From Bacteroidota bacterium (GTDB lineage Bacteria; Bacteroidota; Bacteroidia; Bacteroidales; Prolixibacteraceae): 37,359 nucleotides of DNA. The notes under the pieces are model-generated. The model was not told where the DNA came from. It was given only the letters and a program-made list of their open reading frames with translations, and did not search any database. Both the position numbers and the translations under genes were made by a program. Shown piece by piece: positions 16,599-32,793 of this stretch. Position 1 is the first letter of the stretch. Every line of letters starts with the position of its first letter. The DNA lies in NCBI GenBank assembly GCA_029265715.1, contig JAJUGZ010000033.1, forward strand, positions 1 to 37,359, written 5' to 3'.

Positions 16599-17528
16599 TT
16601 ATTCAGCAAAAGCGTCCAGGGCAACCGTCGGCTTTCCACTGTTATCAAAGGCTCCCTGAGTGTACCCGTTCCAGTTGTTATATGCCTCGGGCTCCCAGTA
16701 AAAGACCCCCAGGCACTGATTATTTGAAATGCCTTTCGATTTTGCAATCAGATCGGTCAGAAACAATTTCGCCGCATCGGCTTCGTCCCACGGCATCCCG
16801 GTTTCACAAACCATCACTTCCTTGCCATACCGGCTGATCATATCGTTCATGTTTGAAATGCAGTCGGCGGTCATTTGCTGCCAGTTGGTTGTTGCCGGAT
16901 AAAGCGACATGCCGATAACATCCCATTTCCCTCCATTATTTTTGAGGCCATCGAATAACCATCTGAAAAGCGAATTGTTATTTCCGTTTTGCAAATGTAC
17001 GATGACTTTAATATCCGGGAAGACCGCTTTAGCAGCATTGTACCCTGCATTGTTAAGCGCTGCATACTGCGCCATGTTTTCAGAAGCTTTGCCATCGTCC
17101 CACAACATCCCGTTACCAGTTTCATTTCCGATCTGGACCCATTCCGGAGTAATCCCGTTTTCTTTCATCAAGCTGAGCACTTCAGTCGTGTGTTCGGCCA
17201 CAGCAGTTTTCAATTCGTTAAACGACAGGCATGTCCAAGCTGCCGGTTTGTTTTGTTTGCCCGGATCGGCCCACACTCGTAACCGGATGGAGTTCATTCC
17301 CAGATCACGCAATAAGTGCATGCATTCCATTTCCTTCCCATTGGTATTATAAAATTTGGCACCCGATTTTTCCATCTCGGTCAGCCAGCTCACGTCAGCT
17401 CCCTTGGCAAAACCGGTCATATCGTGCTCCGGCTCCGGAAGTGGTGTTTGAAGTTGCGGCTCATCGTTGCAGGCAACAAGCAAACTCATAAAAAGGCTCG
17501 CTGCCAAAAGAATAATTCCTGGTTTCAT
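16599..17528 (-). CDS. GH53 endo-beta-1,4-galactanase lipoprotein with an apparent internal deletion
   Basis: This is a 309-residue lipoprotein (MKPGIILLAASLFMSLLVAC). GH53 signatures are clear: FAKGADVSWLTEMEKSGAKF at the barrel start, acid/base E136 in WVQIGNETGNGML and nucleophile E242 in VMVCETGMPW. The family cuts beta-1,4-galactan internally. The oddity is at W86. RLRVW is joined directly to ADPGKQNKPAAW, whereas GH53 proteins normally have about 35-40 residues here, covering the second barrel strand with the FHYSD motif. The protein is correspondingly short. Either a real in-frame deletion or a sequence error is possible, and the enzyme may be inactive or altered. I chose the start at 17528 rather than 17585 because it begins the lipoprotein signal and lies at the end of the shared leader element. 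Confidence 0.88.
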   Translation of the reverse strand: MKPGIILLAASLFMSLLVACNDEPQLQTPLPEPEHDMTGFAKGADVSWLTEMEKSGAKFYNTNGKEMECMHLLRDLGMNSIRLRVWADPGKQNKPAAWTCLSFNELKTAVAEHTTEVLSLMKENGITPEWVQIGNETGNGMLWDDGKASENMAQYAALNNAGYNAAKAVFPDIKVIVHLQNGNNNSLFRWLFDGLKNNGGKWDVIGMSLYPATTNWQQMTADCISNMNDMISRYGKEVMVCETGMPWDEADAAKLFLTDLIAKSKGISNNQCLGVFYWEPEAYNNWNGYTQGAFDNSGKPTVALDAFAE

Positions 17529-17719
17529 TCGTATAAATTTTCGAAGTTGGTCCGTACAATTTTCGGAACAGCTATTATTTTTCAATCAAATTCGCACCGA
17601 CATGAAATTGAGCTTGCGAATCGGAGCGCAGCAAAGATCCACGCAGTGAAATCCGCGAAGCGAATAGCCATTTATACATTTTCGGTTTGTATGAGCTTTA
17701 GCTCTTAGGGCTATTTCAT
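17529..17719 (-). repeat. Shared leader element, copy A (upstream of GH53)
   Basis: Read on the minus strand, this copy begins GATGAAATAGCC, includes AAGAGCTAAAGCTCAT and ACCGAAAATGTA, closes its inverted repeat with GGCTATTC, and ends GAAAATTGTACGG...GAAAATTTATACGAATG at the GH53 start codon. The same blocks in the same order are found upstream of 19505 and 28925. This copy carries about 55 extra bases between the inverted repeat and the start-proximal part. Confidence 0.75.
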
Positions 17720-17754
17720 CAATTGTTTTTTATTCATCATGATAATCAGATCAT

Positions 17755-17816
17755 ATTCCTGAAATTACGTCACCGCTCCGTATACTGGCAACGGTGACGT
17801 AAAATTCCTGAAATTA
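17755..17816. repeat. Perfect 11-bp hairpin flanked by a 13-bp direct repeat, at the SusE-like stop codon
   Basis: ATTCCTGAAATTA occurs at 17755-17767 and again at 17804-17816, the second copy overlapping the stop codon of the SusE-like gene. Between and partly overlapping them, TTACGTCACCG (17765-17775) pairs perfectly with CGGTGACGTAA (17792-17802) around a 16-nt loop. The hairpin lacks a following U tract. It could act as a weak terminator or an mRNA 3'-end stabiliser between SusE and GH53. The flanking duplication looks like a slippage or insertion footprint. Confidence 0.65.
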
Positions 17817-19505
17817 TTGAGTAATACTATAAGTTCCGTTTAACAAATCAACAGTCAAGGTGTAGGTTCCCGGAGCCAAGCTTGCATCATCGGTTATGTT
17901 GCTTCCGCTGTAATACAATTTGCCTGACGAACCTCCGAACTTATGGTTCCACGAAGTATCCAGGTGAATCTGGAACCCCCACGAAGATGCCTTGCTGATT
18001 GTTACCTGTCCAGAATAAGTTCCAACCGTGGCCGTCGCCGCCAAGATTACGCTGAAATCCCAGACATCGTTCAATCCGGAGACATAAATCTGATTTCCAA
18101 TACCAACTAACTTGTAGGTCAACCCTTTCAGCGATGTATCAATCAGATAAAGTCCTGCAGCCGGGGCAGGAAGGTTAGACGAACCTTTGTATGCCAAGGT
18201 TCCCGAATAGGCATCGCCCGATGCGTAAACGTATTTTTCATCCCAATTATCTTTTTCGGTGTAGATACCGTACCCCCAAAGCGAATTGACATTGACAACC
18301 CCGGCATACGCAAGTTCGTCTTCGTTGTAAAGGCTTAAGGTATTATTAAATGTCCAACTTCCGGAGATCCCATCGTCGATACCCGGCAGATAAACATACG
18401 GATTGATAACAACCGGACCTCCAGTCCCTTCGACAGCCTCAACGGTCCAGTTTTTCGGGTTGCTCAGGTCAATTGTCAGGGTATATTCACCTTTCGCCGG
18501 AACTGTAATATTAATGTTTCCGGCCTGACTGGCAAAAACCAGGTTCCCGCCGCTTTGGGCGAATGCCACCGGAGTGTCAATTGCAGCTGCATCGTTGGTG
18601 CCAGTTGTGCTGTTATATAATTTACCGGTTCCGCTAATCTTCACGGTTAGATTTGTCGAAGTTGCCGTAAACGGAATTGTCCATTTCACATTCGGGCGAT
18701 CGAATGTCATTTCTCCTGAAATATCTCCGCTGACTGTCAGTGACGGTATCAGCAAGGCCGACCAAACTTTTTTAGTGGTGTTAACATCCACGTAGTAACA
18801 CCCACTAATCCCAGGGAACCAAAAGTTCCATCGTCCACTTGCCGAAGATGCAACAAATGGGGTTCCGGTAACGGCATCATTTCCCCAAATAGTGCCGTCG
18901 CCTTCTTTCAGGTAATAGTTATACCAGCCTGTCGCACCTATAAACCCAATGTATTCGCCATTTGACGTTGCCGAATACAAGGTCACACCGGTATCCTCCT
19001 GTTTCGAATTAAGAATGAACCCAACACTCATATCAATTTTATAAGCGGTCACGGTTACGGTTACTACATCGCTGTAAACCGGATCTATGTTATCGCCAAT
19101 GGATGATTTCAGCCGAAAATAGACAGAAGTTGCTTCGCCGGGCGTGGCTCCCAGTGTTTTGGCAATGGTATTTAGTTCGGCCCCGGTAAAAGTGCGCGAA
19201 AGGGTCGATTCAACCGATTCGACTACCGTCCCAGAGAAATTTTGTGTTTTTGATACTTGCAACGTAGTTTTCAGAATGTTGGGCGCCGACATGGAAGGAT
19301 CACTCACAGTCAGGGTACTCGTGGTCCAGGAAAGTGCCAACACATTTTCGGCACTATTGGCCTGTGTAAGTATCACCTCAGTCCGGGTTGCCATCAGGTT
19401 ATTTTTTTCAAGCCCCGACAACGTGATCAGGTCGCCATCTTTTTCGCAGGCAGTAAATGCCACAAGCGACAGTAATGCGAACAGGATTCGTTTTACATTT
19501 TTCAT
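17814..19505 (-). CDS. SusE/SusF-like surface glycan-binding lipoprotein
   Basis: This is a 563-residue lipoprotein with lipobox LLSLVAFTAC followed by EKDGD, a Lys/Asp-rich pattern fitting surface export. An N-terminal SusE-type Ig-like domain (about residues 25-160) contains LALSWTTSTLTVSDPS, LQVSKTQNFSG and FTGAELNTIAKTLG. It is followed by several beta-sandwich modules rich in aromatics (GATGWYNYYLKEGDGTIWG, GRWNFWFPGISGCYYVDV, GEYTLTIDLSNPKNWTVE, and the C-terminal APGTYTLTVDLLNGTYSITQ). This is the layout of SusE/F proteins, which bind glycan at the cell surface and have no catalytic role. It comes directly after susD, as in the starch locus, but with a shared leader element in the gap. 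Ligand inferred from context: beta-1,4-galactan. Confidence 0.85.
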   Translation of the reverse strand: MKNVKRILFALLSLVAFTACEKDGDLITLSGLEKNNLMATRTEVILTQANSAENVLALSWTTSTLTVSDPSMSAPNILKTTLQVSKTQNFSGTVVESVESTLSRTFTGAELNTIAKTLGATPGEATSVYFRLKSSIGDNIDPVYSDVVTVTVTAYKIDMSVGFILNSKQEDTGVTLYSATSNGEYIGFIGATGWYNYYLKEGDGTIWGNDAVTGTPFVASSASGRWNFWFPGISGCYYVDVNTTKKVWSALLIPSLTVSGDISGEMTFDRPNVKWTIPFTATSTNLTVKISGTGKLYNSTTGTNDAAAIDTPVAFAQSGGNLVFASQAGNINITVPAKGEYTLTIDLSNPKNWTVEAVEGTGGPVVINPYVYLPGIDDGISGSWTFNNTLSLYNEDELAYAGVVNVNSLWGYGIYTEKDNWDEKYVYASGDAYSGTLAYKGSSNLPAPAAGLYLIDTSLKGLTYKLVGIGNQIYVSGLNDVWDFSVILAATATVGTYSGQVTISKASSWGFQIHLDTSWNHKFGGSSGKLYYSGSNITDDASLAPGTYTLTVDLLNGTYSITQ

Positions 19506-19646
19506 GTGTATAAATTTTCAAAGTTGCTTCTTTCAATTTTCGTATCTATTTCTGTTTTCAGAATGGTTTTTCAACGAGATGGAATAGCCATGATCCGGTT
19601 ATTATTTTCATTATCTGTTGGTATTTGCAAATCATGGCTATTTCAT
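19506..19646 (-). repeat. Shared leader element, copy B (upstream of the SusE-like gene)
   Basis: On the minus strand it starts ATGAAATAGCCATGAT and closes with ATCATGGCTATTCC, a perfect 12-bp inverted repeat (19583-19594 with 19631-19642) around a 36-nt loop. It then continues with ATCTCGTTGAAAAA, CAGAAATAGATACGAAAATT and GAAAATTTATACACATG up to the start codon. From the inverted repeat to the ATG it is nearly identical to copy C at 28790, while the loop sequence differs. Confidence 0.8.
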
Positions 19647-19673
19647 TGTTGTACTCGTTTTTAATTAGCCAAA

Positions 19674-21269
19674 TCAATATCCATCGTTATATAAATTCGG
19701 ATTAGCCGTAAGGTCCGAAGTCGGAATCGGGTAATAATTGTATTTACTGTCAACGGCTTTCCCATCCTTCACGCCGCCTTTCCATTGCCAGATATATGCG
19801 TTGGTGGTGAATTTGCCAAAGCGGATCAGGTCGGTACGACGGGTACACTCCCAGCTCAGTTCGCGGGCCCGCTCATCCAAAATAAAATCGATTGTCAGGT
19901 CGGCGGCAGTCAGTTTGCCCTCAGTTTCGTAGTTATCGCCAAAAGCCCGTTGCCTCAACTGGTTTATTAAATTAAGGGCTGTGGCTGCAGAGCTCCCGCT
20001 GCCTCTGCGAATCACACTTTCGGCGAGCATCAGGTACACATCGGCCAGGCGAAACAGCGGGAAATCGGTATTGACGCCACCATCGGCCGTGTTCGAAGCG
20101 ATTTCACCGGCATCAGTCAGATTGGTCCATTTCGACATAAAATAGCCGTAACTTTGATTGTCCACTTCATCCAGATACTGAGTTTGTCCTTCGGTGAAGA
20201 ACAATTTACGTCCATCAGCATCGTTGTACAAATCCGGTAATTCACCGCGCACACGGAACATGCCCCAACCACTAGTTACACCATAGTCTTCGGGTTTTTG
20301 GTAGTCGGAAGTGTTACTCACTTCTCCGCAAATCAGATAAGTTGTAGCTCCCCACGAAACGGTGTGCGTGGCGTCGACCGGGAGCGGGAAAATAATCTCA
20401 TTGGTTCGCAGGTGGTTGTCCGCATTAAAGAGTTTTCGGAAATTGGCTTCCAACGAATAGTTTCCAGCATCGCCATTAATGACTCTGTTACAGTAAGTGA
20501 TACAATCGGTATAATGGTCTTCTCCCACGTAAACCTGCGCGTTCAGGTAAACTTTGGCCAATAGGGTCCAGGCGGCAGCTTTCGATGCCCGTCCATACTC
20601 AAAGTCGGCGTCATCTTTGCGAAGCAAGTCGGCTTCAATGTCTTTCAATTCCGATACCACGTAATCGAACACTTGCTTCGCGGTATAGCGTGGTGGAGCA
20701 TACGCGCCAACCGGATCGTTTTCGGTTACAAACGGAATATTCCGAAACAAGTCTAATGCGTGGGAATAAGCCAGCGAGCGGATGAAACGGGCTTCGGCAC
20801 GGTAATGCCGGATCTCGGCTTGTTCGGCTTCGGTAAAACCGGCAATCTTTTCATCGGTGGCATTGCGCAAAAACTCGTTGCTCAGCGCAATAGTATAATA
20901 AATACGGTAATACATATCCGATACCCAGGGGTCGTTGGCATCCCACGAAAGAAACGTCAGATCTCCTACCTTATCGCCTTCGAGCCAGGTTGAGGCCACT
21001 TCGTCGGTACCGCATTCCTGCAGGTTGAAGAAACAACGCATGTAATCTTGCCCATTGTTGCTTGACAGGTCGGAATTACCACCGCCTTTTTCCTGGCCGG
21101 TTGTTACAAACGAGGTGTACAGTTTCCCCAGCACAGCTTTGTAGTTTTCGGCTTTTTCATAAACCGAATTCGAGGTTGTTTCGGTTTTAGGGTACTGGTC
21201 CAGATCTTTCTCGCACGAGGCAAACAGAATGGTGCTTGCTACCAGCATATATAAAAATATTTTTTTCAT
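19674..21269 (-). CDS. SusD-family surface glycan-binding lipoprotein
   Basis: This 531-residue lipoprotein (MKKIFLYMLVASTILFASC, then EKDLDQYPKTE) shows the SusD signature. It has an early helical region (YEKAENYKAVLGKLYTSF), TPR-like helices (AEIRHYRAEARFIRSLAYSH), then FRLADVYLMLAESVIRRGSG, and the characteristic end RARELSWECTRRTDLIRFGK followed by YYPIPTSDLTANPNLYNDGY. SusD acts as the lid on the SusC transporter and helps capture oligosaccharide at the surface. It follows susC by about 110 bp in the same direction, and the pair is the core of the PUL. The ATG at 21269 begins the lipoprotein signal and is preferred over 21308. Confidence 0.95.
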   Translation of the reverse strand: MKKIFLYMLVASTILFASCEKDLDQYPKTETTSNSVYEKAENYKAVLGKLYTSFVTTGQEKGGGNSDLSSNNGQDYMRCFFNLQECGTDEVASTWLEGDKVGDLTFLSWDANDPWVSDMYYRIYYTIALSNEFLRNATDEKIAGFTEAEQAEIRHYRAEARFIRSLAYSHALDLFRNIPFVTENDPVGAYAPPRYTAKQVFDYVVSELKDIEADLLRKDDADFEYGRASKAAAWTLLAKVYLNAQVYVGEDHYTDCITYCNRVINGDAGNYSLEANFRKLFNADNHLRTNEIIFPLPVDATHTVSWGATTYLICGEVSNTSDYQKPEDYGVTSGWGMFRVRGELPDLYNDADGRKLFFTEGQTQYLDEVDNQSYGYFMSKWTNLTDAGEIASNTADGGVNTDFPLFRLADVYLMLAESVIRRGSGSSAATALNLINQLRQRAFGDNYETEGKLTAADLTIDFILDERARELSWECTRRTDLIRFGKFTTNAYIWQWKGGVKDGKAVDSKYNYYPIPTSDLTANPNLYNDGY

Positions 21270-21382
21270 ACTAATAATTTGTTTTTTTAAGGTAGTATAA
21301 AACTCCATGTTACTAAATTATAAGCATATCGCCGGATGTTATGAAGCAACATGTTCGTTTCATATCAGCTCAACTTATGCTA

Positions 21383-24355
21383 TTAAAAATTAAGGCCTAA
21401 ACCCAAAGAGAAGGTTGTTGGGCGCGGATAAAACGAAATGTCCATGCCGTTCGGGACTTCGGGATCAACACCGGAATACTTGGTGATAGTGAATACATTT
21501 TGCACCATCCCGTTGATGTTCAGGTTGCAAATATCCCCAATCTTACCGAAGTTGTAGGTCAGCGTCAGGTTGTCCATTTTCAGGAACGAAGCATTTTCAA
21601 TATAATAATCAGACAGGTACTGGCGGTTGTTGAACCCAGTTTTCAAGTAACTCTTATTCAGGTTGTTCAACTGATATGAGTTGTAACTTACCGTACTCCA
21701 GGCTCCGGTATTCATGGACATACCGTTGTAAACGTAGTTGCCCACATTAGCCCGGAAGTTCATGTTCATTGTCCATTTTTTATAGTTCAGCGAGGTACTG
21801 AACCCAAAAATGAAATCGGGCGCCGGCGAATGATAGCGGTACAGGTCGCTCGAGTTGATATTGCCATCGTGGTTCAGGTCGGCATAAGCACCTTCAATGG
21901 GTTTCCCGGTTTCGACATCATACAGCTGGTGGTACAGGTAAAACATGTACGGCTCGTAGCCCTCGGTCAAAACCTGGAACTGGTAGCTATCGATGCTTGG
22001 GCCAACCAGCGTATTGGTGGTCGAGCCGCCTTCAATAAGCGACAAGTTTTTCACTTTCATTTTTTGCCAGCTCATGTTGAAGCTCACATCCCAACTGAAG
22101 TTATCGGTTTTAACCGGCGTTGCATTAATGGTTATTTCAATACCATGGCTGTCCACATTCCCCACATTGGTCAGGATATTTTTGTCGAAGTTGGTTCCTG
22201 CAGCTGCCGGAACGGTAGCCAGCAAGTCTTCGGTTTTGCGGGTGTAGTAGTCGAAGGTCCCCGTGATTTTATCGTCGATGATACCGAAGTCAAAGCCGGC
22301 GTTCCACGATCTAGTAGTCTCCCATTTCAAGTTCGAAACATAGGCTTCAGGACGGTACGTATAGTACCATTGGTCGCCGAACTGTACCTGGGCCCCATTC
22401 TGGCTGTAAGTGTAAACCGGCAAATAGTTGTAGTTACCGATACCTTCCTGCTGCCCGGTAATACCGTAACTCAGGCGAAGCTTAAAGGTACTCAACTCCG
22501 GATTGTCTTTCAGAAATGATTCTTCGTCCAGTTTCCAAGCCAGGGCCACCGAAGGAAATACCCCCCAGCGATTATCGTAGCTGAAGCGCGAAGTTCCGTC
22601 GCGGCGCAAACTGGTGGTCAGCATATATTTCGAGTTATAGCTATAGTTCAGACGGGCATAGTACGACAGCATCACGTGACGTTGATCCCGGGCAGCCGAA
22701 GTGCTTTGCACATCGCCGGCCACGTTTAGTTCCGAATAGGTTGGGGTCGTGCTTTTCCAGTACTGGTAGTCGTAACCAACAATGGCTTCAACATTACTTT
22801 TAATGTTTTCGAAATACTTGGAGTAATTCAGATAAGTCGTCAGCAGGCGGTTTACATTTTTCTGCGGGCCATATTGGTAGTCGCGCCCTCCGGTGGTATA
22901 ATATTGCGTTGCCTCGGCCGGGACATAAATGTTCCCTTCGCCTTTGGCATAATCGTACCCCAGAGTTGCTTTAAAGCGCAGGTCGGGCAAAAACTGAAAC
23001 TTGTAATCGACGTCAAGGTTCCCAACTGCACGGTCAACCTGACTGGTCGAATGATACTGTTCAAGCAGTCCTAACGGGTTTCGGACAGCTGCGTTTACCG
23101 GCGCTCCCGAATTGTCGACGGCTTCGTTGTAACCGCCAAAGCTTCCATCGGTATTATAAACAGGCAAGGTCGGGTTAAAGGTTGAAGCTGCCCAGATAGC
23201 GTTTCCGTTGGCAAAACGGTTGTTGTTATGCGAAAGCTTGGCGTTCAGGTTCAGTTTGAGAAAATCGTCTAAAAATGAAGGCGAAACCGACACACTCCCG
23301 GTCAAACGTTCGGCATTGTCGGTTTTCAGTATTCCATTCTGGTTGTAGTATCCCACCGATACCCGAAGCGGCGTGTTCTGGGCAATACGGGCCGACAAGC
23401 TCAGATTGTTGTCGGTCCCGAAGGCCGCCTGATAAATTTCGTCGTTCCAGTCGGTATTGCCAGTTCCGATGAGGGCTCGTTGGGCAGCCGTTCCTTCACT
23501 GCTCATTACATCGATAAACTGGTCGCGCGACAACATGTCGGGCAGTTTGGTGCGCACCTGAATGGAATTCGTAGTCGAGAAGCTCATGCTCATCCCTTTA
23601 GCTCCAGCCCCTTTTTTCGTGGTAATGAAAATAACCCCATTCGATGCACGCGAACCGTAAATAGCGGTCGATGCCGCATCTTTAAGGATAGTGATATTTT
23701 CAATGTCATTCGGGTTGATCAGGCTCATAAAATTGCCTGAGTTTCCACTAATGCCGCCACTTTCCAGAGGGAGGCCGTCTAATACGATCAATGGGTCGTT
23801 GCTGGCATTCAGCGAAGCTCCGCCCCGAATGCGGATGGTACTTCCCGACGTTGGCGACCCACTATTCGACATGATCTGCACGCCCGATATCTTTCCGGTG
23901 ATCAACTGCTCGGGCGAACTGATCAAGCCACTGTTAAAATCTTTAGCGCTCACACTGGAAACCGAGCCGGTCAGATCGCTTTTGCGCTGCGTCCCGTATC
24001 CAACAACCACCATCTCGCTAAGCTCCTGTGTTTCGGTAGCCATTTTTACATTCAGCGTATTTCCCAAAGGTACGGGCAGCTGCTGTGTTTTATAGCCAAT
24101 GTATGAGAAGCTTAACTCCTGACTTTTGGCCGGAATACGGAGTGAATAGTTACCATCGGCATCCGTAATAGTCCCGATAGTGGTGCCAACGACAACCACC
24201 GTAACCCCGGGAAGCGGATCATTGGTTTCGTCGACCACATTTCCCGAAATAACCCGCTCAGTCTGCTGTGCCCAGGCTGAAGACATTCTCCCCCCAAGCA
24301 TGCAAAGCAGAAGCAAAATAGCCCAAATGCTAAATTTTACGTTTTTATTGTTCAT
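21383..24355 (-). CDS. SusC-family TonB-linked outer-membrane glycan transporter
   Basis: This 990-residue protein has a signal peptide (MNNKNVKFSIWAILLLLCML...SSAWAQ) and a CarboxypepD_reg domain (GNVVDETNDPLPGVTVVVVG, GTITDADGNYSLRIPAKS). The SusC-type plug contains ELSEMVVVGYGTQRKSDLTG, VSSVSAKDFNSGLISSPEQL and TIRIRGGASLNASNDPLIVL, followed by NPNDIENITILKDAASTAIY. A full beta-barrel ends in MDISFYPRPTTFSLGLGLNF. It imports oligosaccharides, here probably galacto-oligosaccharides, with SusD. Its start lies 70 nt after the upstream glycosidase stop, so it is cotranscribed with it. ATGs at 24415 and 24391 are possible, but 24355 gives a standard signal peptide. Confidence 0.95.
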   Translation of the reverse strand: MNNKNVKFSIWAILLLLCMLGGRMSSAWAQQTERVISGNVVDETNDPLPGVTVVVVGTTIGTITDADGNYSLRIPAKSQELSFSYIGYKTQQLPVPLGNTLNVKMATETQELSEMVVVGYGTQRKSDLTGSVSSVSAKDFNSGLISSPEQLITGKISGVQIMSNSGSPTSGSTIRIRGGASLNASNDPLIVLDGLPLESGGISGNSGNFMSLINPNDIENITILKDAASTAIYGSRASNGVIFITTKKGAGAKGMSMSFSTTNSIQVRTKLPDMLSRDQFIDVMSSEGTAAQRALIGTGNTDWNDEIYQAAFGTDNNLSLSARIAQNTPLRVSVGYYNQNGILKTDNAERLTGSVSVSPSFLDDFLKLNLNAKLSHNNNRFANGNAIWAASTFNPTLPVYNTDGSFGGYNEAVDNSGAPVNAAVRNPLGLLEQYHSTSQVDRAVGNLDVDYKFQFLPDLRFKATLGYDYAKGEGNIYVPAEATQYYTTGGRDYQYGPQKNVNRLLTTYLNYSKYFENIKSNVEAIVGYDYQYWKSTTPTYSELNVAGDVQSTSAARDQRHVMLSYYARLNYSYNSKYMLTTSLRRDGTSRFSYDNRWGVFPSVALAWKLDEESFLKDNPELSTFKLRLSYGITGQQEGIGNYNYLPVYTYSQNGAQVQFGDQWYYTYRPEAYVSNLKWETTRSWNAGFDFGIIDDKITGTFDYYTRKTEDLLATVPAAAGTNFDKNILTNVGNVDSHGIEITINATPVKTDNFSWDVSFNMSWQKMKVKNLSLIEGGSTTNTLVGPSIDSYQFQVLTEGYEPYMFYLYHQLYDVETGKPIEGAYADLNHDGNINSSDLYRYHSPAPDFIFGFSTSLNYKKWTMNMNFRANVGNYVYNGMSMNTGAWSTVSYNSYQLNNLNKSYLKTGFNNRQYLSDYYIENASFLKMDNLTLTYNFGKIGDICNLNINGMVQNVFTITKYSGVDPEVPNGMDISFYPRPTTFSLGLGLNF

Positions 24356-24425
24356 AACTGTAAGTTTTATAAAGGTTGCTATCCTTTCCATATTTATTAG
24401 AATTCTCTTAATCAAAATCTATTCA

Positions 24426-26975
24426 TCATTCAATCCAGACAGATCCGAGTTCAATTTCGCAGGACTGACCTTTTTCGCCATCAACCGACAATTCGAAGCT
24501 TTCGATGGTTTCAGCCCGGAAAAGTTCTGCTGTAACCGGATAAAAATGAGACTCTGTAAAAACCGGATAAGCAACCGGGAGCAAGGCTGTTTCTGCTTGT
24601 TGCAGCGCCGAAAGCGGAATCCGTACTATATTGTTTTCAGGCTGCGGACATGATGCCCGATAGGTGTAACCACTCGAAGTTACAAACCCGGCCTTTAGCC
24701 CTTCGGGGGCCTTTTTGACCTGAAGACACAGGTATTTCGCTAATTTTAAGCGATCGTGCAGGCATGCTACTTCGTCTCCAATGTATGTTCTCAGATAAAA
24801 CCGCGGATGGTCATCATCCGACTGAAACACAATCCGAAGCGTATTTTTCTCCGTCGGGGCGTTTTCGACTAGCATTCGCCCAACCGAACTCCATTCGGGC
24901 AACGTGAACGATTCCAGCCCACTGTATTTGTCGGTTACCGAAAACAACACAATAGGCTTTTGCTTATCAAGAACCTGTGTAGCATAGAATTGATCGCCAG
25001 TATAATCCCAATCCAGCGGACTGCCTGACTCATTTGCGGGAAACGTTTGTTTTTGATCGCTACTGAAAACAACGATGTTATACTTGAAACTTATTTCTTT
25101 TATATTGTCAGCCGGTATAACCACCTGATAATTGTAACCGCCCGTCCGTTTCATTTTGTAATACGGATTTTGGGGACTCCAGAAAGAAACGTTGTCGGGA
25201 TAAACCAGAACAGAATCAGGAAATTGGAACCCGGCTACAATGGCCTTGATTTTCAATGCTTCTCCAGCAGAAATGATTTTCGCAGGCTCATGATAAACCG
25301 TTAGATTTTTGTCTGATACCCGAGGCGCCACAAATTCATTCAACCGAATGGTTCCCCAAACAGTTTCACCCTGCCATGTTTTGCCCGGAACAATGCCTTC
25401 TTTTTGCAGCAGGTAAACACCGGGCATCAACGAACGAATGATCCCGTTGCCAGTTCTTCCACGTGTCGGATTACCCAGATTAATTCCGGTAATACTAAAG
25501 CTTTTACCCAGGTCGGGCAGGCTCAGTGTCATATCCCAGGCCCGCCGGTAAATGCGCCCTACATCTTTGTTCAATGATGGTTTGGCAAACGGGTCGCTTG
25601 CCCGGACCACATCAGGCATCACTTCCAAACGCCATATTCCGTCTTCCAGCTTGTCAATAAAATACGCTCCGGTTCCTTCGTAGCCCACCACCGGCGAACT
25701 GCCCACGCCGGCCACCGATTTCAGGCGCAAGGCATCAACCGGAACGGTTTGCGTACTGTTGGAATAATAGAATTTATCCGGGGAATTCAATTCGCTCAGG
25801 TCCTGTTTATAACTAACCCTGAAGTTGCCAAAAACCGTATCGGCCGGATAAACGCCAAACGATTTGTTCCGGGGAAGGCTGAATGCCGCCTCGGCTGCTA
25901 TTTTCATGCTGATCGCCTTCCCGGGCGTGTAGGCCAGGTTCAGATAATGCGTTTGATATTCGGTATTGACCCGGGCTAGTTCCATCGGGTCGTAGGCAAA
26001 CTGGGTGATCCACTGAAAACCGGCGCTCCGGAACGAACGAACCATCGCCGGATACATATAGGAATACAACAAATCGGCCGGATCGAATTCATAAACCAGT
26101 CTGGCCTTCTGACTAAACCCTCTGATTTTCGAAAAGGGGATTGGATATTGATCGACCGAAAGCAAAAAGTTACCTTTGCGCATGTGACCGGCTACTAGTC
26201 CCGTTGGGTACCACTGGTAGGTTGTTCCCTGAATATTGGTCGAAAAATAGGCCTCTTCTTGCTGAAGATTATGGCTTACGTTGTAAAAAACCGGTTTGCG
26301 GTTGCCGGCCTGCTGCAGTACATCAAGCATGCTGTTAATGTAGGCGCGGGTTTCGGCCGGGCTCCCCGGATGACAAGGTTCGTTATTAATCTCAAAACCT
26401 ACGATGCCCGGCTCATCTTTATAAGCTTTCCCGGTATATGGGTTAACATGCCGGGCCAATGCAGCAAGATAGTTCCACTGAGCCGCAACGGCCTCCGGAC
26501 TAACGTGAACATTACATTTATCGTAATTGTATGAAAAACCACCGGTCGCCTGATTTCGCTCCGGGTACCCGTTCCCAAAATTGGTCTGAGCTGTGATGAC
26601 CGTGTAAATATTCCGTTCTCTCAGTTTGGAGATTAAATAATCCAGAAGGTCCAGATGGTCGTTTTCAACCAGATTGCCCCGGGCATCGGTTATTTCAACA
26701 TCCCAGATATGAATCCGGAAAGCATTAAAGCCCAACCGGGCAAAATGGTAAACATCTTCGTCGATGGCTTTTTTGCGGTCGATGCCCAGATAACCGGCAG
26801 CTCGGTAAGCGTGAGCAAAAGGCATGGTGTAGTTAACCCCGAAGAACGAAGCCTCCTGGTTAGTCCCGCTCCACCGCATCGTCCCGTTTTTGTCAACATA
26901 AACCGACGGCGATTTTTGAGCCAGGCTCCCAATAGCAAACAATACGCCAATAACCACTGAAAGAATTTTTTTCAT
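24426..26975 (-). CDS. Clan GH-A glycoside hydrolase, GH147-like (probable beta-galactosidase)
   Basis: This 849-residue secreted protein has signal peptide MKKILSVVIGVLFAIGSLAQ. The TIM-barrel part (about 30-360) begins WSGTNQEASFFGVNYTMPFA and includes FARLGFNAFRIHIWDVE. The probable acid/base is E199 in VGFEINNEPCHPG, and a candidate nucleophile is E296 in ARLVYEFDPADLL, spaced as in clan GH-A. The C-terminal half is beta-rich accessory domains. In pectic galactan PULs of gut Bacteroides a GH147 beta-galactosidase accompanies GH53 and GH2, and this protein's size and neighbours fit that. The family name rests on memory and context rather than a search; a GH5- or GH35-related enzyme is the main alternative. 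It is the first gene of the PUL operon and lies below the predicted HTCS operator. Confidence 0.65.
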   Translation of the reverse strand: MKKILSVVIGVLFAIGSLAQKSPSVYVDKNGTMRWSGTNQEASFFGVNYTMPFAHAYRAAGYLGIDRKKAIDEDVYHFARLGFNAFRIHIWDVEITDARGNLVENDHLDLLDYLISKLRERNIYTVITAQTNFGNGYPERNQATGGFSYNYDKCNVHVSPEAVAAQWNYLAALARHVNPYTGKAYKDEPGIVGFEINNEPCHPGSPAETRAYINSMLDVLQQAGNRKPVFYNVSHNLQQEEAYFSTNIQGTTYQWYPTGLVAGHMRKGNFLLSVDQYPIPFSKIRGFSQKARLVYEFDPADLLYSYMYPAMVRSFRSAGFQWITQFAYDPMELARVNTEYQTHYLNLAYTPGKAISMKIAAEAAFSLPRNKSFGVYPADTVFGNFRVSYKQDLSELNSPDKFYYSNSTQTVPVDALRLKSVAGVGSSPVVGYEGTGAYFIDKLEDGIWRLEVMPDVVRASDPFAKPSLNKDVGRIYRRAWDMTLSLPDLGKSFSITGINLGNPTRGRTGNGIIRSLMPGVYLLQKEGIVPGKTWQGETVWGTIRLNEFVAPRVSDKNLTVYHEPAKIISAGEALKIKAIVAGFQFPDSVLVYPDNVSFWSPQNPYYKMKRTGGYNYQVVIPADNIKEISFKYNIVVFSSDQKQTFPANESGSPLDWDYTGDQFYATQVLDKQKPIVLFSVTDKYSGLESFTLPEWSSVGRMLVENAPTEKNTLRIVFQSDDDHPRFYLRTYIGDEVACLHDRLKLAKYLCLQVKKAPEGLKAGFVTSSGYTYRASCPQPENNIVRIPLSALQQAETALLPVAYPVFTESHFYPVTAELFRAETIESFELSVDGEKGQSCEIELGSVWIE

Positions 26976-27001
26976 CCGTTTAGTGCTTAGTTTCCTGAAT
27001 G

Positions 27002-27068
27002 TAAAATTACGGGAGCCAGTAGGTCAGGAAAAGCAGAAATCGGACATAAAAAGATAAAAAACGGACAT
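27002..27068 (-). promoter_or_regulatory. Predicted HTCS operator and PUL promoter
   Basis: CGGACAT occurs at 27041-27047 and 27062-27068 on the plus strand, i.e. direct repeats 21 nt apart (two helical turns), each with AT-rich flanks. On the minus strand the proximal repeat ends about 30 nt upstream of TAATTTTA (27009-27002), a 7/8 match to TAnnTTTG. This puts the repeats immediately upstream of the -33 position of the operon starting at 26975. Paired direct repeats next to -33 are what an AraC-type HTCS dimer would be expected to bind. Confidence 0.55.
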
Positions 27069-27434
27069 TAGGAGAAAAAACACCATCAATAACAAGCTGA
27101 CGAACAGAAATATAAAACAGAAGACACTACAATTTGCATAAAAAAGGCTCAAAACTTGCCCTGAAAAAACACCGAAGAGAAGTATATCACTCAGTTTAAT
27201 CCAAACTGCTCAATCACGAGCACAACCTCTATTCAATACGATATTGCTACCCCAATCTTATATCTTGAGAATTTCTTGTTCGTGTTTCGCCGGTCAGCAA
27301 CCATTTTCTTTCAGCTTTCAAAAAAAAAATTCGGGCATTACCCCATTTGTTACCCCGCGTATTATACCGCCCTGCCTTTCTTTGTATGTGACAATTACGT
27401 AAATTAACTACAAACTAAATCCAATTAAATACAA
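27069..27434. other. Divergent intergenic region between the PUL and the oxidoreductase gene
   Basis: No gene is seen. The region is AT-rich and contains a direct repeat TTACCCC at 27338-27344 and 27350-27356 (12-nt period), about 80-95 nt upstream of the oxidoreductase start. It may be an operator for the rightward pair. I do not find an exact TAnnTTTG box on the plus strand. Confidence 0.4.
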
Positions 27435-28703
27435 ATGACCGAAATGAAAAACAACCGCCGCGATTTTCTGAAAAAGTCGTTGGTGGCTGCCGCCGGGATC
27501 ACCATTATCCCGAGGCATGTGTTGGGCGGCCACGGGTTCCTGGCCCCCAGCGATCAACTTACCAAAGCAATTATCGGGGTCGGTGGAATGGGCAAAGGGC
27601 ATATTCCATATGAAGACACCCGCGTACTGGCCGTCTGCGATGTAGACAAAAACCATTTAGCCGAAGCCCTGAAACTGGCAGGCCCCGACGCCAAAGGGTA
27701 TGCCGATTTCCGCGAAGTTCTGATCCGCCCCGACATTGATATTGTTCACATTGCACCCCCCCCGCACTGGCACGGAATTATGTCGGTCATGGCAGCCCAG
27801 GCCGGGAAAGACGTTTGGTGCGAAAAACCCATGACCCGAACCATTGGCGAAGGCAAACGCGTGGTGGAAGCGATCAACGCAACAGGGCGAATGTTCCGCC
27901 TGAATACATGGTTCCGGTTCAAAGATGTTTTCTACGGACTGGACACGCCTGTTAAACCGCTAAAGAAAGCCGTTGAAAGCGGGGTTCTGGGCTGGCCCCT
28001 GAAAGTGACCATCAGCGGCGTGACCGGGTTCAACTGGAAATTCTACTGGGTCGGGAAAACCAACCTCGCCCCGCAACCGGTCCCCGATACACTCGATTAC
28101 AACATGTGGCTGGGCCCGGCTCCCGAAAAGCCATACAACGAGCACCGCACCCACCAGACTTTCCGCGGATACTGGGACTACGACGGTGGCGGGCTGGGCG
28201 ATATGGGGCAACATTATATCGACCCGGTGCAGTACATCCTGGGCAAAGACGACACCAGCCCGGTAAAAGTAGAAGTTGACGCCCCGCAACAACATTACGA
28301 TGCCATCGGGACCTGGCGCCGCATCACCTTCACCTATTCCGACGGGTGCCAGATTATCCTGGATGGCGAAAACCGCGACCAGCATGCAGCATACATTGAA
28401 GGGCCCAATGGCAAGATATACAAAGGATTTAAATCAAACATCCCGCGACTGAAGGAACTGATCGACACATTGCCCGATCCGGAGCCACAAATCACGGTAT
28501 TCAGCGACTCGGTCCGCAGCCGGAAGAAATTCGCGCTGAACGAAACCAATGGCCACCGCTCGGCAACCATTGTCAACATGGGTGTTGTGGCGCTGCGCCT
28601 CGGCCGGACGCTCGAATTTGACCCGGTCAAACAGGAGTTCATCAACGACGACGAAGCCAACAAACTGATCAACCAGCCCATGCGCGGCGAATGGCAGATA
28701 TAG
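27435..28703 (+). CDS. Gfo/Idh/MocA-family oxidoreductase with Tat signal
   Basis: This is a 422-residue protein. A twin-arginine signal (NNRRDFLKKSLVAAAGITII) sends it, folded with its cofactor, to the periplasm. The Rossmann fold begins KAIIGVGGMGKGHI, and the family's catalytic lysine is K131 in the EKP motif (DVWCEKPMTRTIGEGKRVVE). The C-terminal domain carries GGGLGDMGQHYIDPVQYILG, with the conserved D and H. Tat-exported members are thought to oxidise sugars at C3 using a tightly held NAD(P). The next gene encodes two DUF1080 domains, the partner activity in 3-keto-glycoside breakdown, so a 3-dehydrogenase role is likely. The start may be 27435 or 27444 (MKNNRRDF); both keep the Tat motif. 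Confidence 0.88.
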   Translation: MTEMKNNRRDFLKKSLVAAAGITIIPRHVLGGHGFLAPSDQLTKAIIGVGGMGKGHIPYEDTRVLAVCDVDKNHLAEALKLAGPDAKGYADFREVLIRPDIDIVHIAPPPHWHGIMSVMAAQAGKDVWCEKPMTRTIGEGKRVVEAINATGRMFRLNTWFRFKDVFYGLDTPVKPLKKAVESGVLGWPLKVTISGVTGFNWKFYWVGKTNLAPQPVPDTLDYNMWLGPAPEKPYNEHRTHQTFRGYWDYDGGGLGDMGQHYIDPVQYILGKDDTSPVKVEVDAPQQHYDAIGTWRRITFTYSDGCQIILDGENRDQHAAYIEGPNGKIYKGFKSNIPRLKELIDTLPDPEPQITVFSDSVRSRKKFALNETNGHRSATIVNMGVVALRLGRTLEFDPVKQEFINDDEANKLINQPMRGEWQI

Positions 28704-28789
28704 CTTCAGTCCCGAAACTTCAGGCTGCCTGTTTTAAGAAAGGCCGCTGATTACAACGAATAAACTACATTAAACCAAATTTTTACCGA

Positions 28790-28924
28790 ATGAAATAGCC
28801 ATAAGAGCTACAGCTCATACCAACCGAAAATGTACAAATGGCTATTCCATCTCGTTGAAAAATCATTTTGAAAAACAGAAATAGATACGAAAATTGTAAG
28901 AAATAACATTGAAAATTTATACGG
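28790..28924 (+). repeat. Shared leader element, copy C (upstream of the HEAT-DUF1080 gene)
   Basis: The copy begins ATGAAATAGCCATAAGAGCT and has the inner hairpin GAGCTACAGCTC. It closes with ATGGCTATTCC, so AATAGCCAT and ATGGCTATT form the outer inverted repeat, then continues ATCTCGTTGAAAAA, CAGAAATAGATACGAAAATT and GAAAATTTATACGG to the ATG at 28925. Its loop matches copy A and its start-proximal part matches copy B. Confidence 0.8.
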
Positions 28925-31900
28925 ATGAAATATCTTAAACATATACTGACTGTTGCACTGACAGTGTTACTGATGGCCCCGACATTTAGCCAGGACCGCC
29001 GAACGCTGGAAACCAAGGTGGCCGATATACTGGCCCAGTTCCCGGCCCAAAACAACGAACATACCGACCGGCTCGTGAGCGAAATTGCCCAGCTTGGCCC
29101 CGATGGAATAGCCAGGTTCTGCAACCTGATTGTCACGCCCGGCACCGGCGATGATACGCAGGCCCGCTATGCACTGAACAGTTTGGCCCAGTTTGCCGGC
29201 GCCCCCGGACAGGAAAATATCCGGGGCATGGTTGAAAACGCATTGCTAACCGCACTCGCCAAAGCATCTGATAAAGAAGTAAAAGCTTTCTTTATCGGCC
29301 GATTGGCGTATTGCGGCCAATCGGCAACCATTTCTGCGCTCGAGACATACCTGAATTCGCCAGATTTGTTTTCCCCGGCAGTAGCCACACTCACCACCAT
29401 CGGGTCTGAGGAAGCTGCACAGGCCATTTTCAGGAACCTCCCGAAGCAACCAGGAGCAGCGCAAATTGAGTTTATCAAGGATTTAGGCGTCCTGAAATAT
29501 CGCCCAGCCGAACCATACCTGATTTCATTGGCCAGCACTGCCGAACCGGCAACTCTGAAACAAGTCTATGCGGCTTTGGGGCAGCTGGGCGAAAAAGCTT
29601 CGGAACCGGTCTTCAGGGCAGCTGTTCAAAAAGCCGGCTACGCCCCTGATGCAACCAATACCATAGTTTCATACCTGGATTATCTTAAAAACCTGGCTGA
29701 CAATGGAGAAAGAAGCCTGAGTAATTCACTCTGTAACGACATTCTGAAAAAATGTACACACCCCGCACAACTGCAATTCCGATCGTCGGCACTTGCAATT
29801 ATCCGTGCGAACCAAGGTACCGAGGCCATGCCGGTCTTACTGAAAGAATTCAAAAATCCGGATAAAACCTACCGGAATGCCGTTCTGCAAGTAGCCGGGA
29901 ATGGGCTCACCACTGATGAGGTAAATCAATGGATTGGCCTCCTGAAAAAGACATCGCCTGAAACACAAGGAGAATTACTGGCCTTCCTGGCCAACCGCCC
30001 CGAAGAAGCGGTACTCGAGAAAGCCATTTTGCCGAGCCTCTCCTCTCCCGATTTGTCAGTCCGCCAAGAAGCTATTGCGGCACTGGTTATGAACCAAAAA
30101 GCGAAGTCAGTTCCCGTCCTGCTCGAACAATTAAAAAAAACACAATCAGACGAAGAACTTGCAGCCCTCGAAAAAGCCCTGCTAACAGCCTGTTCAACAA
30201 AGGAATGCGACATCCTGGCCGGTCAGATCAACGAACAACCGAACAGCGGCAAGGTAGTCATCCTGCATGTGCTGGCAGCCCGGCGTGCCACCAGGCATTA
30301 CAAGCTGGCCAAACAGCTGATCGCCTCAACCGATCCCAACGTAAGCCAGGCCAATTTCTCGGCGCTTAAATCTCTGGCTGAACCCGAAGACATCGAAAGC
30401 CTGATCGCTCTGCTGAAAAAAACCGACCGCCCCGACGAAACTGAAGCTGTCCGGCAAGCCATCATTGCACTTTATACCAACGACAATGCCCCTTCTTCAA
30501 CAATTATCCTGAACGAGATAACTTCCGGGGGCCAAAAAGAAAAATTGATTCCGGTCCTGCCATTCCTCAACGACAAAAGCGCACAGAAAAGCGTTGTTTC
30601 GATACTGAAAACCGGCCAACCCGGAGAAAAAGAATCGGCATTCAGAGCGCTGACCAACTGGCCCAGCGTCGACGCCCTTCCGGCGTTATTCGACGTATTT
30701 ACCAATCAGGCACAACCAGCTTTCCGCAAAGATGCCCTTGCATCCTACCTGAAACTGGCGCTCAACAATCAAAATCCGGACGACCAGAAACTACTTTGGC
30801 TGGAAAAGATCATGCCTCAATGCACCTCAACCGAAGAGCAAAACCGGGTTATCGATGCAGCCGGATCGGTCAAAACATTCCTGTCGCTGGTGTTCGTTGC
30901 GCCCTATCTCGATCAGGATGCTTTAAGCGGCACAGCCGCTATGGCAGCCATGAAGATTGCCCTGCCCTCGCCAGGCGAGAAAAACGGGCTGACCGGGCAA
31001 ATTGTCCGTCAAACCCTGGAAAAAGTAAAAGCTAAAATCACCGGGCCCGACAGTCAGTATTTCAAAATCGACATTCAGGAATACTTAGACAAAATGCCCG
31101 ATGAACCCGGCTATGTTCCCATTTTCAACGGGAAAGACCTGAGTGGCTGGCAAGGATTGGTGAAAAACCCCATTGAACGGGCCAAAATGTCTCCGAAAGA
31201 ATTGGCCAAAGAACAGGAAAAGGCTAACCTGAAAATGCTTGAAAACTGGTCGGTTAAAGATGGCTGCATCGTGTTTAACGGCAACGGCGACAACCTGTGT
31301 ACCCGGAAAAACTACAAAGACTTTGATATGCTGGTCGACTGGCGGATCAGCAAGGAAGGCGACAGCGGTATTTATCTGCGCGGATCGCCTCAGGTACAGA
31401 TTTGGGATACATCGCGCGTTGACGTGGGTGCCCAGGTTGGCAGCGGCGGATTGTATAATAACCAGAAAAACCCCAGTAAACCACTGGTCTTGGCTGACAA
31501 TGCCATTGGCGACTGGAACACATTCCGTATCCGGATGGTCGACCAACGGGTAACCGTTTACCTGAACGGCGTGTTGGTTGTCGACAATGTCATCATGGAA
31601 AACTACTGGGACCGAAACATCCCGATCTTCAGTGAAGGCCCGATTGAACTGCAGGCCCATGGAACCGACCTGGCTTTTCGCAACATTTATGTGCGCGAAA
31701 TCAATCCGGACAACGCTGCGTTGAGCGACGCCGAAAAGGCCGAGGGGTTTGTCTCGCTGTTTAACGGGCGCGACCTGGATAACTGGGTTGGCAACAAAAC
31801 CGATTATGTCGTGGAAAATGGCGTACTGGCCATCCACCCGAAAGAAGGCAGCCATGGCAACCTATACACCGCCAAAGAATATTCGAACTTCATTTTCCGT

Positions 31901-32395: not shown

Positions 32396-32793
32396 TTAAA
32401 CATGCCCAAACCGGCCTTCGAGAATTCCGGTTACAGAAAGATCTTCATCCAACAACGGCCAATGAATCCCTGTCCCTCCACCGATAATTTCCATCACAGA
32501 AACTTCTTTCTCTATAGCATTCCTAAGTTTTTCATAAATAAATATTGTTGTTAAAATATTGAAATTTAGGCGTGTACTTATGAAACTCCATGCCATGGAA
32601 ATTAGCTTCTCTAATAATATTAACATGGCCTTTGGTGCCACCACCATAAATTTTGTTACCGTGGCATGTTCGTTTCATTCAGGTAAACGGGGAACCGCAC
32701 CTCCCGATTATCAGAAAGCAACAGACAAATCATCCCGTTTTCATACCACACCTTCTGACAAGTAAACATCCGTTCAGTTACCATGTATTTCAT
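32396..32793 (-). pseudogene. DUF2442-family gene interrupted by about 130 bp
   Basis: From the ATG at 32793 the frame reads MKYMVTERMFTCQKVWYENG, MICLLLSDNREVRFPVYLNE and TNMPR, then stops at 32656. The family's missing C-terminal part reappears in another frame at 32527-32396: LRNAIEKEVSVMEIIGGGTG then IHWPLLDEDLSVTGILEG. Joining ...NMPR to LRNA... would restore a normal DUF2442 protein, so about 130 bp (32528-32658) has been inserted. DUF2442 genes usually sit beside DUF4160 genes as a suspected toxin-antitoxin-like pair, as here. The gene is almost certainly dead. Confidence 0.75.

Follow-up and report, generated by a model that had tools for sequence, protein, structure and literature searches.

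Several described classes of mobile DNA resemble the element that we analyse here, a leader of about 70-200 nt that recurs directly before start codons in contig JAJUGZ010000033.1 of a Bacteroidota bacterium (37,359 nt, hereafter the window) and throughout the genome to which the contig belongs. Among these are the IS200/IS605 insertion sequences, whose cleavage sites pair with a guide inside the element (PMC6006769), and their non-autonomous derivatives, the palindrome-associated transposable elements (PATEs) and IS605-type miniature inverted-repeat transposable elements (MITEs). Like them, the leader has no terminal inverted repeats (judged by reading the ends), carries a subterminal hairpin, appears to insert 3' of a fixed short target, and holds an internal guide that would pair with a cleavage site (NNG:CNN at the right end of short elements, more weakly in type I). 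It differs in that the guide lies 3' of the hairpin rather than 5', the left and right cleavage sites would share the pentamer ATGAA, no tnpA or tnpB was seen inside the units, and the target corresponds to a Met-Lys start codon.

Repetitive extragenic palindromic (REP) sequences and REPtrons (with TnpA-REP, or RAYT, of the Y1 HUH kind) share with our element the many dispersed extragenic copies, both solitary and clustered, the short tag immediately 5' of a hairpin, and a stem that differs between families. However, the REP tag is GTAG/GTGG or CGTC whereas the tag here is ATGAA, and our element has in addition a second, covarying pairing at its right end followed by a right ATGAA, forms tandem direct copies concentrated at start codons, and has no cognate Y1 gene tied to it. 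In PMC6006769 (Quentin 2018), Y1 subclass 2.6 genes of Bacteroidetes are described as flanked by 'atypical secondary structures' that are copied elsewhere in the genome. These structures match ours by description, in phylum and in their copying, but most Y1 frames that we examined (17 of 21) carry Y..[NQ]Q..HH, the motif of subclass 1.2; this subclass is described in PMC6006769 as generally lacking typical IS200 terminal structures. By resemblance, the element would be filed as a variant of the IS200/IS605-REP kind.

Our reading, to which we assign a probability of about 0.72, is that the leader is a non-autonomous mobile element that inserts at ATGAA. The sequences themselves show that the copies are dispersed, are bounded by ATGAA, form tandem arrays, have entered a coding gene and are in excess at start codons, and that in short elements the right end covaries with the guide.

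Copies of the leader in the window

The initial annotation had described three leader copies (17529-17719 and 19506-19646 on the minus strand, 28790-28924 on the plus strand), each placed between two genes of an operon, sharing ordered blocks with the others, and stopping directly before the ATG of the next gene (GH53, SusE-like, HEAT-DUF1080). The positions, the blocks and the ends at start codons were confirmed, and the copies lie between genes of the same strand. The named blocks are common to the three copies; pairwise, the closest matches reach 93-95% identity across 37-58 nt, far above chance. With the ATGAA pentamers included, the copies in the window are as follows.

17524..17719, minus strand: copy A, type I enlarged by an insert of 57 nt; left ATGAA at 17719-17715, right ATGAA at 17528-17524, the GH53 start
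19501..19646, minus strand: copy B, 5' half of type II joined to 3' half of type I; right ATGAA at 19505-19501, the SusE-like start
28790..28929, plus strand: copy C, full-length type I; right ATGAA at 28925-28929, the start of the HEAT/3-keto-disaccharide hydrolase
28790..28850, plus strand: left hairpin of copy C, in which ATGAAATAGCCAT (28790-28802) is predicted to pair with ATGGCTATTCCAT (28838-28850) by the fold and the family consensus structure
about 21264/21265-21363, minus strand: fourth, diverged copy, by a model match (E 4.6e-5) and by reading of the sequence
32531..32678, minus strand: type III copy, which shares 95% identity with a second one of its type and is away from any gene start

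The genes that follow copies A to C match PF07745 (GH53, 6.9e-78), PF14292 (SusE-like, 4.4e-17) and PF06439 (HEAT/3-keto-disaccharide hydrolase, 5.8e-86), respectively. The fourth copy lies between the SusC-like and SusD genes with its right end at the SusD start codon (21269; PF07980), and has a type III-like left end (ATGAAACGAACATG), the guide TTTTAT-ACT and the right end AGT-ATGAA; each of the three successive gaps in the SusC-like/SusD/SusE-like/GH53 gene run thus holds one copy. Two subtypes are joined as a mosaic in copy B. A model based on 34 short elements, of which 31 come from public genomes and 3 from the genome of the window, found copy B (E 7.8e-9) and copy C (6.4e-6) again and copy A weakly (0.079).

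In copy A, the extra 57 nt lie at 17605-17661, after GGCTATTC; the same insert (GCTTCGCGGATTTCACTGCG...) occupies an identical spot in several type I units and is perhaps a nested repeat. In type III copies other than the one at 32531-32678, a 48-codon open reading frame (ORF) runs from the left ATGAA (MKRTCHGNKIYGGG...), and its stop appears to overlap the next ATG, which suggests translational coupling.

The element is dispersed through the genome and occurs in tandem arrays

The genome of the window (G000; 4.2 Mb, 200 contigs) contains 163 exact left ends (ATGAAATAGCC; 77+86) compared to 8 for the reversed-pattern control, as well as 119 exact right ends (GAAAATTTATACNNATGAA) and 114 perfect hairpins, both with a control count of 0; several contigs terminate within copies. 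The stretches read contain 57 full-length type I copies; the nearest neighbour is at least 99% identical for 11 of them and at least 90% identical for 50, while the median pairwise identity is 0.81, so young and old copies are both present.

A unit extends from one ATGAA to the next, with ATGAA on both sides, and follows the plan ATGAA, hairpin, TTCCAT-NNG, A-rich stretch, CN'N'-ATGAA. The left ATGAA is kept in most copies read and is the left tag of all types read, with CTGAA or AAGAA in its place in a few model matches; the pattern by which elements were collected from public genomes required it. We surveyed 156 kb, namely the window and 80 stretches that were chosen to include the first 100 left ends listed as well as some other sites, and tolerated at most two mismatches to the motif in a right end. 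Of the 126 right ends obtained, 59 run straight on as another element, the neighbouring units of such arrays sharing one ATGAA, and 67 close an array; one locus has four left ends in succession (L166). Twenty stretches had right ends mostly without a listed left end, and these held diverged, truncated or intact left halves with no cargo gene visible. At one locus (L209) the right end reads ATGAT instead of ATGAA, and its ATG apparently still opens a 309-codon ORF.

Right ends of arrays often coincide with start codons

An ORF of at least 90 codons opens at 44 of the 67 array ends, with some of these ORFs running off the stretch and two of the 44 (L108 and L147) looking doubtful. The same 156 kb contains 402 other ATGAA sites, of which 29 are start-like; 120 sites fall outside long ORFs, 12 of them start-like. 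Compared to a control of 137 sites (these 120 plus the other 17 start-like sites), array ends were strongly enriched (44/67 versus 29/137; odds ratio 7.1, Fisher p 1e-9), with control sites also having needed a nearby upstream stop, a condition that was not imposed on element ends. Start codons are therefore over-represented even when selection against gene disruption is allowed for. Among the matches listed for public genomes, 45 of 60 recognisable right ends lead into an ORF that either spans 90 or more codons or reaches the edge of the stretch, in contrast with 139 of 1724 other ATGAA sites in those loci; by another rule, 46 of 62 listed public stretches open a long ORF at ATGAA. The enrichment probably arises from insertions that are tolerated rather than from active seeking of start regions.

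The genes preceded by elements are unrelated and include enolase, dnaN and lpxK. Three units stand upstream of enolase and reach the contig end; dnaN has two complete units upstream and, before them, a bare type I right end; and the three units before lpxK begin 9 nt past the stop of an upstream frame that is open for at least 121 codons. Alignment to the Pfam models begins at residue 1 for DnaN and at residue 4 for LpxK, so these are true starts. For 88 proteins encoded downstream of elements, 121 Pfam families were matched, none of them by more than three of the proteins. Because the element is genome-wide and its downstream genes have no common function, the link that had been drawn between a galactan polysaccharide utilization locus and a 3-keto module was not borne out, while the view that a leader-like element ends exactly at start codons without gene duplication was confirmed. 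The initial annotation had also reckoned with a dispersed repeat unrelated to start codons; the copies are indeed scattered genome-wide, but they lie mostly at start codons.

The right end covaries with an internal guide

The consensus fold of the 34 short elements consists of hairpin 1 (AATAGCCAT:ATGGCTATT) followed by hairpin 2 (CATNNG:CN'N'ATG), whose 3' arm contains the right-end ATG. Hairpin 2 is paired in 97.5% of cells compared to 88.0% after shuffling, with 19 double-changed cells versus 5.3 and a covariation score of 0.253 versus 0.085, and none of 500 shuffles was as good by any of these three measures; versions of the pairing slid along the sequence reached at most 44%. The NNG triplets stand outside the pattern by which 31 of the 34 elements were collected, and thus the triplet match was not forced by collection. 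In contrast, the collecting pattern required the outer stem, so the hairpin 1 pairs are uninformative in this set; on model-aligned matches, hairpin 1 has both-side changes at all 11 pairs and 82% of cells paired, in an alignment that leans towards structure. The covarying pairs thereby uphold the view of the leader as a structured element.

We extended the comparison to 60 distinct short elements, a few of which have a mis-assigned right end. NNG and CNN match at 0.828 at the right end compared to 0.690 after shuffling (standard deviation 0.022; highest of 2000 shuffles, 0.772), whereas the triplet on the left flank matches at 0.528 versus 0.513 (standard deviation 0.028), indicating no covariation there. 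The right end is therefore part of the element, and ATGAA seems to be all that is needed at the target; the TTCCAT of the guide is near-complementary to the left ATGAA. A GAG/CGA variant, which would form tandem G-A mismatches, occurs in 9 of the 60. In 89 long elements the triplet match is weaker (0.566 versus 0.486, standard deviation 0.016).

A unit interrupts a transposase gene, and relatives lack units before an accC-like gene

The sole match to PF01797 (Y1 transposase) in the genome of the window is interrupted in its last codons by a type I unit.

L091:5388-5945, contig C73 of the same genome: interrupted Y1 transposase gene, its C-terminus replaced by element-encoded residues

The frame reads ...GIEYDE to the left of the unit, and KYLWTD-stop would continue it in frame on the right; an uninterrupted homologue ends ...KIEYDEKYLWD-stop. 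A second case concerns a gene that we take, from its sequence, to be accC-like: in the genome of the window, a complete unit stands directly before its start and the 3' part of another lies further upstream, while no unit was present in the 70 nt before the start in any of the 26 relatives read (29 loci were returned, and three distant ones were left out). The gene opens with ATGAA in 12 of these 26. The exact type I/II hairpin is patchily distributed, occurring in the genome of the window and in 8 of 40 near relatives.

The same plan recurs with unrelated stems across the phylum

The pattern TTCCATCTGN{16,40}CAGATGAA was present in 25 of 296 genomes of the phylum, most often in the genome of the window (40), G234 (30) and G180 (14). 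The genome of the window and eight others were supported by the model at E <=7.5e-4, G116 and G317 on the basis of weak or shortened units; 10 were unrecognised and 6 fell outside the model comparison. Because model R1 did not recognise the 10 pattern-only loci, the reversed-pattern control count of 0 understates chance. At the level of sources, 29 of 30 matched the model at E <=0.0031 (L368 being the exception), although these had been pre-selected by the pattern and are not independent, whereas 30 control sources, made up of 20 accC-like loci and the 10 pattern-only loci, gave a single match, at E 0.43.

Scanning 1.14 Mb of loci for TTYCAT-NNG, its complement and ATGAA gave 67 distinct matches, 53 of which combine a stem with a left ATGAA. 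Their left ends show 13 different strings, which appear to represent about seven unrelated stems. As read from these sequences, the same plan with unrelated stems is present in other families and in one other class of the phylum. In G180, a genome of another class, one unit ends where a glutamate-racemase-like gene (PF01177) begins. Three G180 loci (L341, L376 and L372) show a reduced form closer to classical REP sequences, in which a simple hairpin (e.g. GAGTCCCGA...TCGGGACGAG) precedes TTCCATCTG. The exact type I/II hairpin also occurs in at least 62 stretches of named Bacteroidota records, nearly all metagenome-assembled genomes, some of them evidently the same genomes as G018 and G024. We did not find it in viral contigs, and blastn with copy C revealed no phage or plasmid carriage. 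In the titles and abstract openings of a literature set covering few subscription journals, there was no account of elements that target ATGAA or land on start codons.

A possible mechanism and its mobilising enzyme

On the reading that we favour, a unit would insert at ATGAA and leave ATGAA on either side. ATGAA encodes Met and, with its last two bases, opens a Lys or Asn codon, so an insertion at a start codon leaves the N-terminus intact. In types I and II, the old start would turn into ATG-AAA-TAG (Met-Lys-stop); translation would now start in the region formed by the AT-rich right arm of the element. Since the ATGAA created in this way can itself be targeted, tandem arrays would grow. The element itself probably supports translation, given that essential genes are led by elements. 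Members of the phylum are described as lacking Shine-Dalgarno sequences (PMC6847099), and thus an AT-rich right arm could suffice. We consider it possible, at slightly under even odds, that an HUH (Y1) enzyme moves the element as in IS200/IS605 and REP systems, by cleaving single-stranded DNA 3' of ATGAA: the fixed target, the ends without inverted repeats, the tag at the hairpin foot, the covarying guide and the arrays are as that chemistry predicts.

The evidence for Y1 as mobiliser is mixed. The Y1 transposase, the obvious candidate partner, was set aside on the grounds that its presence does not discriminate among genomes. No cognate tnpA-REP gene flanked by copies was found, the Y1 gene of this genome being the interrupted one and one of 50 other Y1 loci having a nearby hairpin copy. 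Locus L363 (contig C32 of G234) has a tandem pair of elements downstream of a Y1 transposase gene and on the strand opposite to it. An autonomous version, with a gene inside the type I/II hairpin loop, was not found in the loci examined, mostly 1-8 kb long.

Several observations weigh against the favoured reading. The loci examined showed no mobilising gene within the elements and none that regularly adjoins them; Y1 genes are present in 37 of 41 genomes (that of the window included), many of which lack the exact hairpin; and among the 50 further Y1 loci, a part of all Y1 matches, only two have a covarying match, one in G234 and one at L181, where it lacks a hairpin and is probably chance. G226 (100% complete, 5 contigs) carries elements and has no Y1_Tnp or reverse transcriptase match, although its copies are diverged and may be fossils. 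At the boundaries, no long ORF opens at 23 of the 67 array ends in the genome of the window and at 15 of 60 elsewhere, some copies have no 5' side, and the duplication of ATGAA could stem from another recombination route. Within hairpin 2, pairs changed on both sides (2 versus 1.6 shuffled; 301 of 500) and further pair types (5 versus 5.8; 462 of 500) show no excess, and the third guide pair of type I is mostly C-C (55 of 89).

Alternative explanations

Covariation, together with the AUG being part of the consensus fold, is also what one would expect of a conserved cis-acting RNA leader in which CAUNNG:CNNAUG masks the start codon and opens on a signal, dispersal having enlarged the set of targets. 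Consistent with this idea, the elements lie in sense orientation before genes, and the predicted probability that the AUG is unpaired is 0.25 in 27 element leaders compared to 0.43 at 152 native starts, in fold windows of different make-up; by this lower accessibility, the element may also dampen translation. We nevertheless regard an RNA leader as unlikely, since the downstream genes have no common function and include housekeeping genes, copies also occur at ATGAA sites that are not starts and within the transposase gene, and most copies read retain a left ATGAA that would be superfluous for an RNA switch. Furthermore, no Rfam family matched the elements at gathering score, the matches obtained being tRNAs elsewhere in the loci and, in a further run, three at chance level.

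Two other proposals strike us as far less probable still. A retroelement, carried as RNA and inserted through a reverse transcriptase of the group II intron type, would fit with the one reverse transcriptase match in the genome of the window and with the copies that lack a 5' side, but G180 and G226 bear elements without a PF00078 match, and 5' truncations may be ordinary deletions. The suggestion that the leader is a portable internal promoter for a common regulator draws on TAACTTTG/CAACTTTG, a string near the right end of many type I copies that we take to resemble the Bacteroidetes -7 box. This string is absent from short elements, and the parts that are conserved are the hairpin, the guide and the right end.

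Implications

If the leader is a mobile element that inserts at ATGAA, landing on start codons without breaking genes would be a route for wholesale replacement of leaders and translation rates, even for dnaN or enolase. Elements could then precede essential genes and stack in arrays, each bringing a ready-made leader, and this would account for repeated leaders in Bacteroidota genomes. It would also provide a testable guide/target code (NNG:CNN and TTCCAT:ATGAA), suggest an insertion tool directed at gene starts, and call for caution in that conserved 'RNA leaders' from comparative genomics may be transposable elements. More tentatively, and with a little less than an even chance of being right, the units may represent a phylum-wide superfamily of single-stranded-DNA elements that carry their own ATGAA guide, are specialised on the Met-Lys start codon, restore each start codon that they hit, bring a leader suited to a phylum without Shine-Dalgarno sequences and would re-wire translation starts genome-wide.

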